Assembly (NCBI RefSeq): GCF_000297055.2
Contig: NC_022357.1
Coordinates: forward strand, 1,933,501-1,997,500
Source: Sulfuricella denitrificans skB26
GTDB taxonomy: Bacteria; Pseudomonadota; Gammaproteobacteria; Burkholderiales; Sulfuricellaceae
Length of the DNA stretch: 64,000 nt
Reading direction: 5' to 3'
Both the position numbers and the translations under genes were made by a program. The stretch's first letter is position 1; each line of letters opens with the position of its first letter. Positions 28,002 through 33,379 of the stretch are shown one piece after another. A model generated the notes under the pieces. The model saw only the letters and a program-made list of their open reading frames with translations, was not told the DNA's origin and ran no database searches.

Positions 28002-28215
28002 ATCTTCACCATAAAACAAACTGCCGCAGTACATTCCAGACAACCGCGGCCCACCATGCAGATACTCATATCTGCCCTCTTTTCCCATTACACTTCTCAA
28101 GTATAGATCAGGAAAGTGAATGCATCGCCCAATACGATTCGGGTGGGTCTACGATCTGCAGCAAAAAAAGATTGCGGCAAACCGATATGCGGCCGAGGCG
28201 AAACTCAGAATATGT

Positions 28216-28950
28216 TCATACCTTGATGTAAACCCAGTCCTGCTTCAGACGCAAGGTGATCTGGTCCAAGGCGGAGGAGGCAACCCCTGTATGCGGTAGC
28301 AGTTGTACGTCCACCCCTTTTCCCTGGAGTTTCTTGATGGTCTGGCTGCAGGCTATGAACCCGAGGTTAGGATATTTTTCTTGCATCAAGCCGATACGCT
28401 TGGCATAGGGAGAGACATCCGCGCGCAACAAATCTACCCCCCCACCATTGGCAACGATTTCAATCTGGAGCTTTCGACCGGACCGTCGATAGCTGTCCAG
28501 CAGGTTCTCAGTTTCGTCCAGCGCTGTTTTGAGCCGGATTGGATTGGATGAACTCACGTGAACTATGAATTTTTGGGACTCCGCCCCGACATCGTTGCGC
28601 TGCGCGCTCTGGAGCAGGCGCGTCATTTCTTTGTCGCCCCCCATCCCTGTCCAGGTGTGGGCAAACCAGCCGGAGGCTGCGCCGATGCTCAGCAGCAGGC
28701 AAGCAGCCAGCGCCTGAAGATGGGACGCGCGGAAACGCCGCCCTTTCACCGCCGATCTGCCCGGGGCAGGAGGGTGCTCGTAGGCGTGCCGCATCCTCTC
28801 CTTCAGCCCGCGCAGCTCACACACCCGTTCCTTCAGCGCATCATCATGTTCGATCGCATCGAACGCCTGGCTTTTCTCAGCCCCGTCGAGTTGATCATCC
28901 ACAAACGCATTGAGGAATTCATCTGAAACGCCTTGATCATTCTGCTTCAT
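28216..28950 (-). CDS. Transmembrane anti-sigma factor fused to a DsrE-like periplasmic domain
   Basis: A 244-residue protein from ATG 28950 (AGGAG seven bases upstream). Residues 1-60 look like an anti-sigma domain without the zinc-binding H-x3-C-x2-C set (FLNAFVDDQLDGAEKSQAF). One membrane helix spans about 78-96 (LQALAACLLLSIGAASGWF). Residues 127-244 align with the secreted DsrE-like protein at 29695-30150: KFIVHVSSSNP against KVVFQVSAGDP, and IACSQT (C201) against VACENT, both ending near a WVYI/YAYI motif. It overlaps the sigma gene by ATGA. The fusion suggests the DsrE-like domain is the periplasmic sensor; that is inference. Confidence 0.8.
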   Translation of the reverse strand: MKQNDQGVSDEFLNAFVDDQLDGAEKSQAFDAIEHDDALKERVCELRGLKERMRHAYEHPPAPGRSAVKGRRFRASHLQALAACLLLSIGAASGWFAHTWTGMGGDKEMTRLLQSAQRNDVGAESQKFIVHVSSSNPIRLKTALDETENLLDSYRRSGRKLQIEIVANGGGVDLLRADVSPYAKRIGLMQEKYPNLGFIACSQTIKKLQGKGVDVQLLPHTGVASSALDQITLRLKQDWVYIKV

Positions 28951-29507
28951 TTTATTCTCCTGATTCGGCTGATCTGCGCAGACTGCACTGGGGCAAGCTC
29001 CTGCAACATCTCCTTCAACGCCCGCCGCGCTCGACACAAACGGCTCATCACGGTGCCAACCGGAATTTCCAGGATGGTGGCAACCTCGGCATAGGAAAAT
29101 TCTTCCAGATCCACCAGCGTCAGAACCTGGCGCTGGCCCATCGCGAGCCGTGCTACCGCCCCGCGCACTCGCCCCACAATCTGGGTCTGCGCATGCTCAT
29201 CTTCAGGTGTGGTTTCGTGCACACAGCGGTAATCCTCAATTTCATCAATATCCTCCATCTCCCGGTGTTGCCGGAAATGATCGCGCCAGCAGTTGGTCAA
29301 AATACTGAACAGCCAACTATTCAGCATTTTCGGATCGCGCAACTGACCGTAATTTTTCAGCGCCTTGGACAGGGTTTCCTGTACCAGGTCGTCTGCCAGC
29401 GCCGCGTCATGACTCCAGGAGTATGCAACCCGGTATAGACGCACTCGGCTTTGCTCCAATTGGTCGTGGAAGGTATGAGAGCGACTGAACAGGGAAAGGA
29501 TTTTCAT
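28947..29507 (-). CDS. ECF-type RNA polymerase sigma factor
   Basis: A 186-residue extracytoplasmic-function sigma factor. Region 2 reads LADDLVQETLSKALKNYGQL and WLFSILTNCWRDHFR; region 4 reads LVDLEEFSYAEVATILEIPV then GTVMSRLCRARRALKEML, a clear helix-turn-helix. I chose ATG 29507; an in-frame GTG/ATG at 29576-29579 would add 24 residues, and neither has a good ribosome site. It is translationally coupled to the anti-sigma gene and divergent from the DsrE/porin operon, its likely target. Confidence 0.9.
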   Translation of the reverse strand: MKILSLFSRSHTFHDQLEQSRVRLYRVAYSWSHDAALADDLVQETLSKALKNYGQLRDPKMLNSWLFSILTNCWRDHFRQHREMEDIDEIEDYRCVHETTPEDEHAQTQIVGRVRGAVARLAMGQRQVLTLVDLEEFSYAEVATILEIPVGTVMSRLCRARRALKEMLQELAPVQSAQISRIRRIK

Positions 29508-29609
29508 CGTATCGGAAGATCGGCCTGAAAATTGATCATAAAGTATACGACGTGGCAGCCAACTAAAATATTCCATCACCGGCGAATTATTTAATTTTTA
29601 AAAAAATTC

Positions 29610-29636
29610 GGAATAAATGCCTTGTCCCAGCCGTCT
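29610..29636 (+). promoter_or_regulatory. ECF-type promoter candidate upstream of the DsrE-like gene
   Basis: GGAATAAA (29610-29617) followed 14 bases later by CGTCTT (29632-29637) resembles ECF promoters with a GGAA-type -35 and a GTC-type -10. It reads toward the DsrE-like gene, about 60 bases before its ATG. A short inverted repeat (GTAGC/GCTAC, about 29647-29664) lies in the leader. Confidence 0.5.
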
Positions 29637-29694
29637 TCAATTGTAGTAGCAGTACACCGCTACAACTCACATTACAAACAGGAGACAACACCAA

Positions 29695-30150
29695 ATGAAA
29701 ATTTTACGTCAATTCCAGCACATGGTCGCCGCTTCCGCGCTGGCACTGTCCTTTGCTTCTAGCGCCGCCCAGGCCGTCGATGCTCCCGCCCCGCAAGCTA
29801 CCGCGGATAAGCAAAAAGTGGTATTCCAGGTCAGCGCAGGCGACCCGAAAATATGGAACCTTGCACTCAACAACGCCAAGAACGTACAGCAAGAACTTGG
29901 TGCGCAAAACGCCGACATCGAAATCGTGGTCTATGGCCCCGGAATCGGCATGCTCAAATTCGATTCCGCGGTCGCAAACCGTATCGATGAAGCCGTCGGA
30001 AGCGGCGTCAAGATCGTCGCCTGCGAGAACACCATGAAGGCACAGAACCTCACCAAGGACGACATGCTCTCATCCCTTAGCTATGTACCGGCTGGCGTGA
30101 TCGAACTGATGAAAAAACAGAAAGAAGGCTACGCCTACATTCGCCCCTAA
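29695..30150 (+). CDS. Exported DsrE-family protein
   Basis: A 151-residue protein with a signal peptide (ASALALSFASSAAQA) and a single DsrE-like domain. VVFQVSAGDPKIW, IEIVVYGPGIGML and VKIVACENTMKAQNL are typical; C110 sits where DsrE-type proteins carry their sulfur-handling cysteine. ACAGGAGAC precedes the ATG. It is followed by a porin gene and faces a sigma/anti-sigma pair whose anti-sigma carries the same domain. The function is not known; a sulfur or thiol role in the periplasm is inferred. Confidence 0.87.
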   Translation: MKILRQFQHMVAASALALSFASSAAQAVDAPAPQATADKQKVVFQVSAGDPKIWNLALNNAKNVQQELGAQNADIEIVVYGPGIGMLKFDSAVANRIDEAVGSGVKIVACENTMKAQNLTKDDMLSSLSYVPAGVIELMKKQKEGYAYIRP

Positions 30151-30208
30151 AACGGCAAAGCGCGTAGACCGACCAAATTAAAATTCAAATACCCTTCAGG
30201 AGAGGACA

Positions 30209-31615
30209 ATGAAAAAAACCCTACTGGTGACCGCAATGGTCGCCGCTTTCGCGCATGCACCCGCCTCATTCGCCACCAACTGGTTCCAGCTGCAGAACAA
30301 CGAGCAGCCGGGCGCTGCGCCCTATACTTTCTGGGGCTTCATCCAGCCCACCTATACGCATAACGAAGGCGGGACAGTCAGCGGTATTCCCGCGACGGTC
30401 GTATCCCCGGTAAACGGCGCCAATGTTGCAGTTCCGGCGGGGCTTCGGGCTTACAATGGACAAACTGCCCTGTTCAATCTGGTGGGACCTGATCTATCCC
30501 ACAGCGACCAGTTGCAAATGTTTCGCGCACGCCCCGGGGTGCGCGGCGTGATTCCTGGAACGGACGAGAAAATCAATTATTTCGTCCTCGCCGAACTCGG
30601 CAATAACGCCCTGACCCGTGAAAGGCAAGCCGTACTTACTGACGCCACGGTAACCTTGAATTACATCCCCGGCGCGCGCATTCGTGTCGGCCTGGGCCGC
30701 CTCCCGCTCGGCGAGGAAGCCATGCAAGGCGTCCAGATCATGGATTACATCAACTTCACCACCGTCACCGACCAGTTACTCAATGAACGTTTCGTGGAAT
30801 CCTACGCAAATGCATCGCGCACCCATGCTGCAGTGGTGGGCGCGCCGATGGCGATGTCAAAACTCAATGGTGCATTTGGCGGCTATCGCGACGTCGGTGT
30901 CGAAGTGTACGACTGGTTCAACCGGGGCAGATGGGAATATACCTATGCGGTGATGGCCAGCCAGGCCAATGGCATTAGTTTCGGCGACGACCTCAACAGC
31001 GGCAACCACGATGTGACGGCGCGCGTACAGGCCTCCTACGTGTTCCAGGGGGCCGGCCCGAAACGCGAAGACGTCACGGCTTACGCCTGGCATCAGGACG
31101 GCAAGCGCGCCTTTGGCGGCACCGACTACACCCGCATCCGCGAAGGCATCGGCGCCAAATACCTGCGCAACGGCGTACGGGTCAGCGGCGAATACATACG
31201 CGCCAAAGGCATGATCTATGTCGCCCCCACACCGCAATTCAACGACATCGGCGCCCCTGCCTATGAACCGGTTGATTATGTGGCGCTTGACTCCAGCAAC
31301 AAGGCCGACGGCTATTATCTGGAGACGGGCTGGAAGTTTGCGCCAAAATGGGAAGTGGACCTGCGCTATGACGAACTCAGCAAAATGACGAATTCGGCCT
31401 ACGACGAACGCAAAGCCACCACCTGGACCCTGGGCGGCCAGTATTTCTACAGTCCCAAGGTACGCTTTGTGCTGAATTATGAAATCCGCGACATCAAGGT
31501 CGTTCACCCTGAGGCGCAATTGACCAACGGGCAAAAAATCCAGGGTACCGCTGCTGGAATTATTGGCGGTTCAGTCGGCAACCGGCTCAGCGCACAGATG
31601 ACCTGGATTTTCTGA
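30209..31615 (+). CDS. Outer-membrane porin-like beta-barrel protein
   Basis: A 468-residue exported protein. The signal peptide ends near APASFATNW. The body is rich in amphipathic strands with aromatic girdle residues (TPWTL-like YVFQGAGP, GYYLETGWKFAPKWEVDLRY) and ends in a terminal phenylalanine (SAQMTWIF), the barrel-assembly signal. It resembles phosphate-selective or general porins, but I cannot assign the substrate. It is 58 bases after the DsrE-like gene with AGGAGAGG upstream, so both are probably one transcript. Confidence 0.8.
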   Translation: MKKTLLVTAMVAAFAHAPASFATNWFQLQNNEQPGAAPYTFWGFIQPTYTHNEGGTVSGIPATVVSPVNGANVAVPAGLRAYNGQTALFNLVGPDLSHSDQLQMFRARPGVRGVIPGTDEKINYFVLAELGNNALTRERQAVLTDATVTLNYIPGARIRVGLGRLPLGEEAMQGVQIMDYINFTTVTDQLLNERFVESYANASRTHAAVVGAPMAMSKLNGAFGGYRDVGVEVYDWFNRGRWEYTYAVMASQANGISFGDDLNSGNHDVTARVQASYVFQGAGPKREDVTAYAWHQDGKRAFGGTDYTRIREGIGAKYLRNGVRVSGEYIRAKGMIYVAPTPQFNDIGAPAYEPVDYVALDSSNKADGYYLETGWKFAPKWEVDLRYDELSKMTNSAYDERKATTWTLGGQYFYSPKVRFVLNYEIRDIKVVHPEAQLTNGQKIQGTAAGIIGGSVGNRLSAQMTWIF

Positions 31616-31638
31616 CAATACCCGTAGCACCTCTGCAC

Positions 31639-31678
31639 GGGGCCGCGAGCCCGGTCTTTCTGGCCGGATCGCGGCCCC
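31639..31678 (+). terminator. Strong hairpin after the porin gene
   Basis: A 10-bp perfect GC-rich stem (GGGGCCGCGA at 31639-31648 with TCGCGGCCCC at 31669-31678) and a CCGG inner stem, followed by TTCT. It lies 24 bases after the porin stop, in place for a terminator, though the T-tract is short. Confidence 0.6.
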
Positions 31679-31735
31679 TTCTCCATTGCGAATTGCCGGC
31701 ATGATACAATTTGAACAAAATTCAAGGTGATGCTC

Positions 31736-33379
31736 ATGCCGGCCCCAAGCGCAAAAAAATCAAAAAAGTCCCTTAAAGTTCTTTTCGTCACATCTGAAAT
31801 CCACCCCCTGATCAAGACCGGTGGGCTGGCTGATGTCAGCGGCGCATTGCCCGCGGCATTGCGCGAGCTCAGCACGGAAGTGCGAGTGCTGGTGCCGGGT
31901 TACCCGAAAGTGCTGGCCGGCGCCAAGAACAAGCGCCTGCTTCACACCTTCCACGATCTGCCCGAAGCTGACGAAGTACACTTACTATCGGCCTCACTGC
32001 CTGGCAACGGAGTGCCGCTGCTGATCATCGATTGCCCGGTACTCTACCAGCGCGACGGCGGCCCTTACCAGAACCCTGCCGGCGTAGACTGGCCGGACAA
32101 TGCTCAGCGTTTTGCCCTGCTTTCACGGATCGGCGCCATTCTTGGCAGCGATGCCACGCCCCTCTCATTCCGTCCCAACATCGTTCACTGCAACGACTGG
32201 CAAAGTGCACTGGTACCCGCGTTTCTGCGCTTCATGCATGGAAAGAAAGCGGCGACAGTCATGACCATACACAACCTCGCCTTCCAGGGCATCTTCCCGC
32301 CACACGTCGTGACCGAGGTCGGTCTACCGCCGGCATGCTTCAGCATCGAGGGAGTGGAATACTATGGCAATTTCTCCTTTCTCAAGGCCGGCCTCTACTA
32401 TGCCGACCACATTTCCACGGTCAGCCCCACCTACGCGCAGGAAATCCAGCAGGAAGCACTCGGCTTCGGCATGCAGGGTCTGCTCACTCGCCGCAGCAAC
32501 AAACTGACCGGAATCGTCAACGGCATCGACACCAGCGACTGGAATCCAGCCGCTGACCCGCATCTGGTGCAGGGATACGACGCTGGGAACATGGCTGGCA
32601 AGACCGCCAACAAGCTCGCCCTGCAGGAAAAAATGGGGTTGAAGCGCGACCCGGACATCCCGCTGCTCGGCATGATCAGCCGTATCACCCAGCAGAAAGG
32701 CGGGGATCTGCTGCTGGAAATTGCGCCGCAACTGCTGCGAGAAAACGTGCAGATTGTCCTGCTTGGAACCGGCGAAACCGTGCTGGAAAACGGCTTCCGT
32801 AACCTCGACCACGCACATCCGGACAGGGTGGGGGTGACGATCGGCTTTGACGAGGGATTGTCGCATCTGGTCGAAGCCGGCGCAGATCTGTTCCTGATGC
32901 CCTCTCGCTTCGAACCCTGCGGCCTCAACCAGATGTACAGCCAGCGCTATGGCACGCCACCAATCGTGCATGCCACCGGCGGTCTGGCCGACACGGTGGA
33001 GGATGGCGTCACCGGCTTCGTGTTCGAACCGATGACCGCCGAGGCATTTCTGGCCAGCATCAGACGTGCACTCACCACCTACCACGACAAGCAAGCATGG
33101 CACGCCATCCAGCACAACGCCATGACGCGGGATTTCAGCTGGAAAAAAAGCGCCGAGGATTACCTGGCGCTTTATAAAGCAGTCCTGAGTCCTGAGTCTA
33201 CAAATTATCGCGCAGCGATAACCACGCACTCAGGACTTTCTACTCGGCACTCAGCACTGTGCTTCAAAGCCAAACCATCAGCCCCATCTCCAACGGATGA
33301 GTCAGGAGCTCCTGCCAGGGGTAAACGCGGATTTTGTAATCCAGATGACCACACCGGTCCGGGGCCAGATCGAGGGTAA
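31736..33379 (+). CDS. glgA: Glycogen synthase, with a repeat-derived C-terminal tail
   Basis: Transfers glucose from ADP-glucose to glycogen (GT5). The N-terminal KVLFVTSEIHPLIKTGGLAD holds the ADP-glucose K-x-G-G-L motif; VHCNDWQSALVPAF and LFLMPSRFEPCGLNQMYSQR are the other signatures. ATG 31736 has AAGG eight bases upstream; ATG 31730 is an alternative. The conserved protein ends near YLALYKAVL (about 33183). The last 65 or so residues are translated from a palindromic repeat and then from the antisense of the glgP 3' end, ending 116 bases inside glgP. The tail is probably not functional. Confidence 0.93.
   Translation: MPAPSAKKSKKSLKVLFVTSEIHPLIKTGGLADVSGALPAALRELSTEVRVLVPGYPKVLAGAKNKRLLHTFHDLPEADEVHLLSASLPGNGVPLLIIDCPVLYQRDGGPYQNPAGVDWPDNAQRFALLSRIGAILGSDATPLSFRPNIVHCNDWQSALVPAFLRFMHGKKAATVMTIHNLAFQGIFPPHVVTEVGLPPACFSIEGVEYYGNFSFLKAGLYYADHISTVSPTYAQEIQQEALGFGMQGLLTRRSNKLTGIVNGIDTSDWNPAADPHLVQGYDAGNMAGKTANKLALQEKMGLKRDPDIPLLGMISRITQQKGGDLLLEIAPQLLRENVQIVLLGTGETVLENGFRNLDHAHPDRVGVTIGFDEGLSHLVEAGADLFLMPSRFEPCGLNQMYSQRYGTPPIVHATGGLADTVEDGVTGFVFEPMTAEAFLASIRRALTTYHDKQAWHAIQHNAMTRDFSWKKSAEDYLALYKAVLSPESTNYRAAITTHSGLSTRHSALCFKAKPSAPSPTDESGAPARGKRGFCNPDDHTGPGPDRG
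33181..33258. repeat. Heptamer-based palindromic repeat (STRR-like), copy 2, inside the glgA 3' end
   Basis: The left arm has AGTCCTGAGTCCTGAGT (33181-33197). The right arm has ACTCAGGACT and, after a few bases, ACTCGGCACTCAGCACT (33228-33257). In the loop is a perfect small hairpin, TTATCGC/GCGATAA (33205-33221). It uses the same heptamers as the copy at 21025-21120 and lies six bases from the glgP stop. Confidence 0.82.

Follow-up and report, generated by a model that had tools for sequence, protein, structure and literature searches.

What would a DsrE-type domain do on the periplasmic side of a membrane-bound regulator of transcription? The question is raised by a four-gene locus of Sulfuricella denitrificans skB26, situated in a stretch of 64,000 nucleotides (contig NC_022357.1, positions 1,933,501 to 1,997,500; hereafter the window, whose numbering is used throughout). 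The locus encodes an extracytoplasmic function (ECF) sigma factor, a transmembrane anti-sigma factor, a secreted DsrE-family protein and an outer-membrane porin. The answer favoured here, and considered rather probable, is that these four genes form an autoregulated sigma/anti-sigma switch responding to reduced sulfur in the periplasm through the cysteine of a DsrE domain. The features concerned are as follows.

28216-28950, minus strand: transmembrane anti-sigma factor of 244 aa, with an N-terminal domain (about residues 4-51), a transmembrane helix (about 75-97) and a periplasmic domain of predicted DsrE fold (about 124-243)
28348-28350, minus strand: codon of Cys201 of the anti-sigma factor, its lone periplasmic cysteine
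28947-29507, minus strand: ECF sigma factor of 186 aa, with an ATG start at 29507
29549-29574, minus strand: predicted ECF-type promoter GGAATA-N16-CGTC facing the sigma/anti-sigma operon (score 20.6)
29610-29635, plus strand: predicted ECF-type promoter GGAATA-N16-CGTC facing dsrE and the porin gene (score 25.5)
29695-30150, plus strand: secreted DsrE-family protein of 151 aa, a signal peptide (by eye) followed by a DsrE domain with the lone cysteine Cys110
30209-31615, plus strand: outer-membrane porin of the Porin_O_P type, 468 aa, with a C-terminal Phe

The sigma and anti-sigma genes occupy the minus strand, with dsrE and the porin gene divergent from them. An original prediction, made from the letters of the sequence, had read the locus as a module of an ECF sigma factor, a fused anti-sigma factor, a secreted DsrE and a porin, and all four genes were found. 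By its domain content the product of 28947-29507 is an ECF sigma factor, with Sigma70_r2 (PF04542) and Sigma70_r4_2 (PF08281) over the Pfam cut-off and TIGR02937 of NCBIfam at 84.4 bits (cut-off 42.9). Its start was taken as the ATG at 29507 in place of the GTG at 29579, which opens the longest open reading frame (ORF). The anti-sigma gene begins with an ATG at 28950, in a 4-base overlap with the sigma stop, and its own stop ends at 28216; the closest anti-sigma factors among named loci are those of Sulfuricella sp. T08 (94%), a Sulfuricella metagenome-assembled genome (91%) and a Hydrogenophilales metagenome-assembled genome (89%). The secreted protein matches Pfam DsrE at 40.4 bits (cut-off 22.7) and the porin matches PF07396 at 29.5 bits (cut-off 20.9), a family matched by 25 of 31 module porins. 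The porin was modelled as a beta barrel with a predicted local distance difference test (pLDDT) score of 80 and a predicted template modelling (pTM) score of 0.82, and its top PDB match was OprP (E 1.4e-12).

The window anti-sigma factor, with one transmembrane helix (hydrophobic maximum at residues 78-96), has no Pfam match at E≤1, PF02635 (DsrE) included, and a single insignificant anti-sigma match in NCBIfam (E 0.52), so that family annotation would miss it. An alignment was therefore compiled of 53 proteins, namely the window protein, 51 full-length matches from the order and the protein of genome G013, with the full-length copies from G006 and G009 excluded; order and class are here those of the window's genome. 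The profile of this alignment retrieved MTH1491 (PDB 1l1s) at E 2.2e-20 over positions 123-240, and the window sequence alone retrieved the same structure (E 1.2e-4, residues 129-244). In the AlphaFold2 model the periplasmic domain has a pLDDT of 91-97 from residue 131 on; the pTM of the whole protein is 0.54, and the mutual placement of its domains is unsure. Foldseek assigned the model to the DsrE/F fold (E 1.1e-8). VIA-align of the periplasmic part gave ten top matches (Z 18.3-11.8, the following row at 8.0), the best of them 1l1s (Z 18.3, root-mean-square deviation 1.7, 110 aligned). Seven of the ten bear the names DsrE/DsrF, TusBCD or YchN and the others are MTH1491, ST0148 and BT1422; the Pfam-DsrE neighbour is related in sequence to 1l1s and 2pd2, and 2fb6 is titled as of unknown function. 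The DsrE-type fold suggested earlier for the periplasmic part of this transmembrane anti-sigma-like protein is thus borne out by model and profile alike, and the missing PF02635 match reflects divergence only, since the fold and profile comparisons both find the domain. PF02635 itself was matched in 12 of the 53 aligned proteins at E≤0.01.

In fold the domain resembles MTH1491, ST0148, YchN, TusBCD and DsrEFH (Z 18.3, 17.2, 13.5, 12.6 and 12.6, respectively). Proteins of the DsrE/F family are stand-alone, and DsrEFH and TusBCD are cytoplasmic complexes, whereas the domain described here is tethered to a membrane-bound regulator. At the other end of the protein, the profile matched MucA (6in7) at E 0.011 and RseA at E 0.014 over positions 4-51, both weakly, and RseA_N was matched in five of the 53 proteins at E≤0.01; the N-terminal domain is a probable RseA/MucA-like one. 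The anti-sigma factors of this type that partner sigma-E and AlgU would, by the weak match, have the same kind of N-terminal domain, and they are similar in their single transmembrane helix and in a gene lying directly after that of the sigma factor. The periplasmic part of RseA is not known to have a DsrE fold.

Full-length fused anti-sigma factors were identified in 52 of 399 genomes of the order and in at least 66 of 369 genomes of the class, in at least 41 families. The neighbourhood was compared at 53 order-level loci and at 40 class-level loci, the latter a non-random choice of mostly stronger matches from the 66 genomes, representing 35 genomes and 25 families. An ECF gene lies directly upstream of the anti-sigma gene in every case (53/53 and 40/40). 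A divergent dsrE is present at 30 of the 53 and 18 of the 40 loci and is accompanied by a porin gene at 18 and 17, respectively; eight class-level loci have dsrE downstream on the same strand. It had also been proposed that the arrangement be sought in other sulfur oxidisers, and it recurs in genomes with sox genes. At two loci (L193 and L198) the sigma/anti-sigma-DsrE pair is present twice in tandem, alongside a dsrE gene on the same strand and a DsrE-porin pair in divergent orientation. At L097 (positions 1-195) a partial second anti-sigma N-terminal domain is seen at the contig end, diverging from the full one.

The two DsrE domains of the module are related to each other. The original prediction held the anti-sigma domain to be homologous to the divergently encoded secreted protein and proposed a comparison of profiles; with the anti-sigma domain set against the stand-alone DsrE neighbours, hhalign found significant similarity (99.6%, E 8.8e-24, 114 columns), against E 0.15-0.53 in five column-shuffled controls. 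Six anti-sigma factors of family f50 were excluded from the anti-sigma profile. Even as single sequences the two window domains are matched by BLASTP (E 8e-7, 30%). The cysteines of the motifs IACS and VACE, paired in that prediction, fall into one shared column in 53 of 53 anti-sigma factors and 37 of 37 stand-alone neighbours. Only four positions are invariant among the aligned anti-sigma factors: D18, G171, C201 and L217. None of the 53 has a cysteine other than C201 beyond residue 100, and the counterpart of C201 is the lone cysteine of the last 125 residues in the 42 anti-sigma factors of the 40 class-level loci, so that all 95 fused anti-sigma factors examined have a lone periplasmic cysteine. 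The stand-alone neighbours likewise have a single cysteine within their last 122 residues (36/37), and MTH1491 and ST0148 have one at the position aligned with C201. Because the domain contains no partner cysteine, these proteins cannot form an internal disulfide there, which leaves adducts, persulfides and bonds between proteins as possible cysteine chemistry.

In a tree of 90 DsrE domains, a strongly supported branch (100/99) sets off 47 anti-sigma domains, and the six f50 domains (L093-L098) are found among stand-alone proteins (98/92), with one long-branch row adjacent and rooting by midpoint only. This placement suggests a second capture of a DsrE domain, or a domain swap, in the f50 anti-sigma factors.

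A common regulation of the two divergent operons is predicted from their promoters. Of the 53 order-level loci, 51 were long enough for the promoter test. The sigma-ward motif GGAATA-N16-CGTC (with C/T-GTC accepted as the last block) occurs in 48 of these (48/53 overall) and the outward version GGAATA-N15/16 in 37 (37/53 overall), against dinucleotide-shuffle expectations of 0.0 and 0.05 loci; in 295 control windows two sigma-ward and no outward motifs were seen. These order-level counts are descriptive, because the motif was first spotted by eye on the same loci. The 40 class-level loci provide a fresher test and gave 26 sigma-ward and 16 outward motifs. In the whole genome of S. denitrificans there are 13 exact GGAATA-N16-CGTC sites, the same as the count for the backward pattern, so their number alone shows nothing and it is by score that the divergent pair stands out. 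The pair scores 25.5 and 20.6, being itself among the sites from which the matrix was built, and the remaining 11 score 4.6-14.2, under the weakest matrix-building site (14.7). Eight of these 11 are inside ORFs of at least 259 aa, and the other three, in ORFs of 102-158 aa without a Pfam match, may be intergenic. As only the divergent pair scores high, the predicted direct regulon in this genome consists of the sigma operon and dsrE-porin, and the sigma factor probably drives dsrE and the porin gene from the paired promoters.

A link to sulfur oxidation is provided by sox genes, which adjoin the sigma/anti-sigma pair in 14 of the 53 order-level loci, replacing or joining dsrE and the porin gene. 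They lie downstream on the same strand in eight loci, all with the sigma-ward promoter, and are divergent in six, all with the outward promoter; representatives of SoxB, SoxY, SoxZ, SoxX and SoxA exceeded the NCBIfam cut-offs. Sox genes of the AXYZ kind were seen in two of the 40 class-level loci. Genome G262 has an unlinked soxYZAXB operon with the motif starting 53 bases upstream of its soxY ORF (L147; score 25.5). SoxB was found in 50 of 52 fused genomes of the order as opposed to 138 of 347 others (399 genomes searched at E≤1e-50; Fisher p 6e-16, kinship ignored). In the class the figures, among the matches listed, are 64 of 65 as opposed to 81 of 295 (360 of the 369 genomes at E≤1e-100, the fused genome G764 being outside the search; Fisher p 6e-29, kinship ignored). 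Because the arrangement recurs in many relatives with genes of thiosulfate oxidation, the module probably serves to detect extracellular reduced sulfur. The sox operon was considered as a universal target and rejected, as the motif stands at soxY in one of the 14 fused genomes that were each read at a single unlinked sox region.

Two further observations concern proteins near these loci. At L208, at +1496 with respect to the anti-sigma gene, the outward motif points towards a protein of 724 aa that is similar to SoxB (phmmer 1e-25) and not towards dsrE. Five loci (L064, L065, L066, L068 and one more) encode a protein of 170-175 aa that looks DsrE-like by eye, contains a CGNS motif and begins with a signal-peptide-like stretch; it is near sox genes in four of the five, and a representative had no NCBIfam match.

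How such a switch might operate can be outlined, and for the identity of the signal, the chemistry of the cysteine, the mechanism of release and the sign of feedback by the secreted DsrE we infer the following. To judge by domain type and gene order, the RseA/MucA-like N-terminal domain would keep the ECF sigma factor bound at the membrane. The periplasmic DsrE-fold domain would take sulfur onto its single conserved cysteine; alternatively, the cysteine would be read by a sulfur-carrying partner, for example the secreted DsrE or SoxYZ. The anti-sigma factor would then be weakened or destroyed, by proteolysis or a conformational change. Once freed, the sigma factor would act on the twin GGAATA-N16-CGTC promoters, for which the sequence argues strongly, and so transcribe both the sigma operon and, divergently, dsrE-porin; in some relatives the same promoter would serve sox genes that it faces or heads, instead or as well. 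Of the products, the porin may let sulfur anions cross the outer membrane, and DsrE or Sox proteins may handle sulfur bound in the periplasm. The secreted DsrE may either donate sulfur, giving positive feedback, or soak it up, giving negative feedback; it may also compete with the anti-sigma domain, as suggested in the original prediction.

Several findings weigh against this switch. Neither a divergent dsrE nor sox genes were seen at 11 of the 53 order-level loci, of which six are cut by a contig end on one side and two others have a divergent porin gene. The sigma-ward motif is missing from three of the 51 usable loci, one with just 178 searchable bases, and from 14 of the 40 class-level loci. 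The match of the N-terminal domain to RseA/MucA is weak (E 0.011). The window genome's own sox operon (L132) has no such promoter, nor was the motif present at soxY in 13 of 14 fused genomes, the window's own among the 13, read at one unlinked sox region each (second SoxB genes of G067, G177 and G241 being left out). In three near-complete genomes of the same genus (G003, G007 and G011) there is no anti-sigma match; G007 and G011 nevertheless have SoxB, and the module is therefore not needed to have sox. The SoxB association is uncorrected for phylogeny. As regards the sulfur or thiol signal of the original prediction, sulfur is supported indirectly, through the invariant lone cysteine, the sox linkage and the co-occurrence with SoxB, and an invariant lone thiol would suit redox or metal sensing too.

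A more far-reaching scheme is put forward tentatively: sulfane-sulfur signalling across the class, in which the anti-sigma factor would be a membrane-tethered DsrE carrier whose cysteine is charged by the secreted DsrE or SoxYZ, sulfur transfer itself being the transmembrane signal that leads to sulfur uptake and, in some lineages, to the sox operon. Among the alternatives, a sensor of thiol stress or soft metals survives best. Here the DsrE cysteine would react with oxidants, electrophiles or arsenite/mercury, and the regulon would serve to restore periplasmic thiols and not to exploit sulfur as a nutrient. A single periplasmic cysteine lacking a resolving partner in all 95 anti-sigma factors would agree with this. 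In Thioalkalivibrio a response to arsenite is seen in DsrE/F-like genes and, separately, in a porin, not necessarily those of this module (PMC6620896). General stress, however, would need neither the sox genes next to the pair in 14 of 53 loci nor SoxB, which nearly all fused genomes possess, and this explanation is regarded as unlikely.

A switch working purely through protein interaction is still less probable. DsrE proteins form multimers, RseB binds RseA, and outer-membrane porins are targets in envelope responses of the sigma-E type. By analogy the DsrE domain would be a platform for oligomerisation, to which the secreted DsrE binds, titrated by the state of the envelope or porin, with no sulfur chemistry involved. 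One fold common to both partners, probably one promoter type, the weak RseA_N similarity and a porin as the likely target would all agree with this. Pure docking, however, does not require a cysteine that is invariant in both partners, and at 23 of the 53 order-level loci no divergent dsrE was seen. A neutral origin, in which the DsrE domain arrived by accident, senses nothing and leaves regulation to something else, is hardly credible, given that domain and cysteine are kept across many families and that the f50 domain, by its grouping with stand-alone proteins, looks like a second capture.

The reduced-sulfur switch has partial counterparts among known systems. RsgI anti-sigma factors sense carbohydrates in a Gram-positive organism by means of other domains, unlike the system in the window. 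In Clostridium thermocellum they are similar in that the outer sensor domain resembles a kind of protein made by the regulon (PMC12203970). RpoE1/RpoE4 of Sinorhizobium meliloti (group ECF26) are likewise a sulfur-linked ECF system, activated by thiosulfate or taurine metabolism and controlling their own operon; they differ in that their targets include the sulfite dehydrogenase gene sorT, and DsrE is not named in the searchable text (PMC3511301). In another published ECF system, sigma factors affect sox gene expression, as is proposed here, and DsrE has no occurrence in the main text. An influence of ECF factors on sulfur genes as such is therefore already known (PMC3511301, PMC3445524). Hyphomicrobium SoxR/SoxT1B also adjusts sulfur oxidation to external sulfur, but does so with a repressor fed via a membrane transporter, and 'sigma factor' does not occur in the main text (PMC11582611). 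The main text on the thiosulfate transcriptome of Sideroxydans names neither DsrE nor a sigma factor (PMC8788666). Literature on DsrE with anti-sigma factors, sox with ECF factors and persulfide with anti-sigma factors leaves the arrangement undescribed in searchable titles, abstracts and passages, subscription papers being mostly outside these. A DsrE fold as sensor of an anti-sigma factor had been called unfamiliar in the original prediction, and the searchable literature indeed held no description of one; the new element is a sigma/anti-sigma system with a sensor domain that this literature does not describe for such systems.

The sensing of external sulfur by regulators in sulfur oxidisers has been stated to be poorly understood (PMC11582611). 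The module places a sulfurtransferase-type fold in the sensor position of an anti-sigma factor. This candidate sensor is conserved in at least 41 families and comes with a single residue to test, a single promoter motif and an operon that can serve as reporter. Secreted DsrE proteins would also gain a setting for study.

As to its history, the module is a discrete cassette. By Pfam, the four genes are flanked by a 6-phosphogluconolactonase-type gene and a starch/glycogen-synthase gene. In G011, where the flanking DNA is 93-94% identical, the module is absent and window positions 28009-31778 correspond to about 125 bases (L228, 1394-1519); it has therefore been gained or lost as a unit between close relatives. 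No flanking repeats were seen at the empty site of G011 or at the module edges. A mobile element was considered and set aside on account of these missing repeats and the housekeeping flanks, with no further search for mobile genes made. A gene with an HDOD domain (PF08668; 26410-27252), lying between PGI and 6-phosphogluconolactonase-type genes, is likewise absent at the G011 locus. In a sample of 398 genomes of the phylum, full-length fused anti-sigma factors occurred only in three genomes of the window's order. Fused versions elsewhere in the phylum were rejected: outside the order, the best 17 partial matches proved to be DsrE-type proteins standing alone, with no ECF gene within 1.5 kb on each side and, in most, a signal-peptide-like start by eye. 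These stand-alone proteins (L171-L187) are close to the anti-sigma sensor domain and represent a possible source of it.

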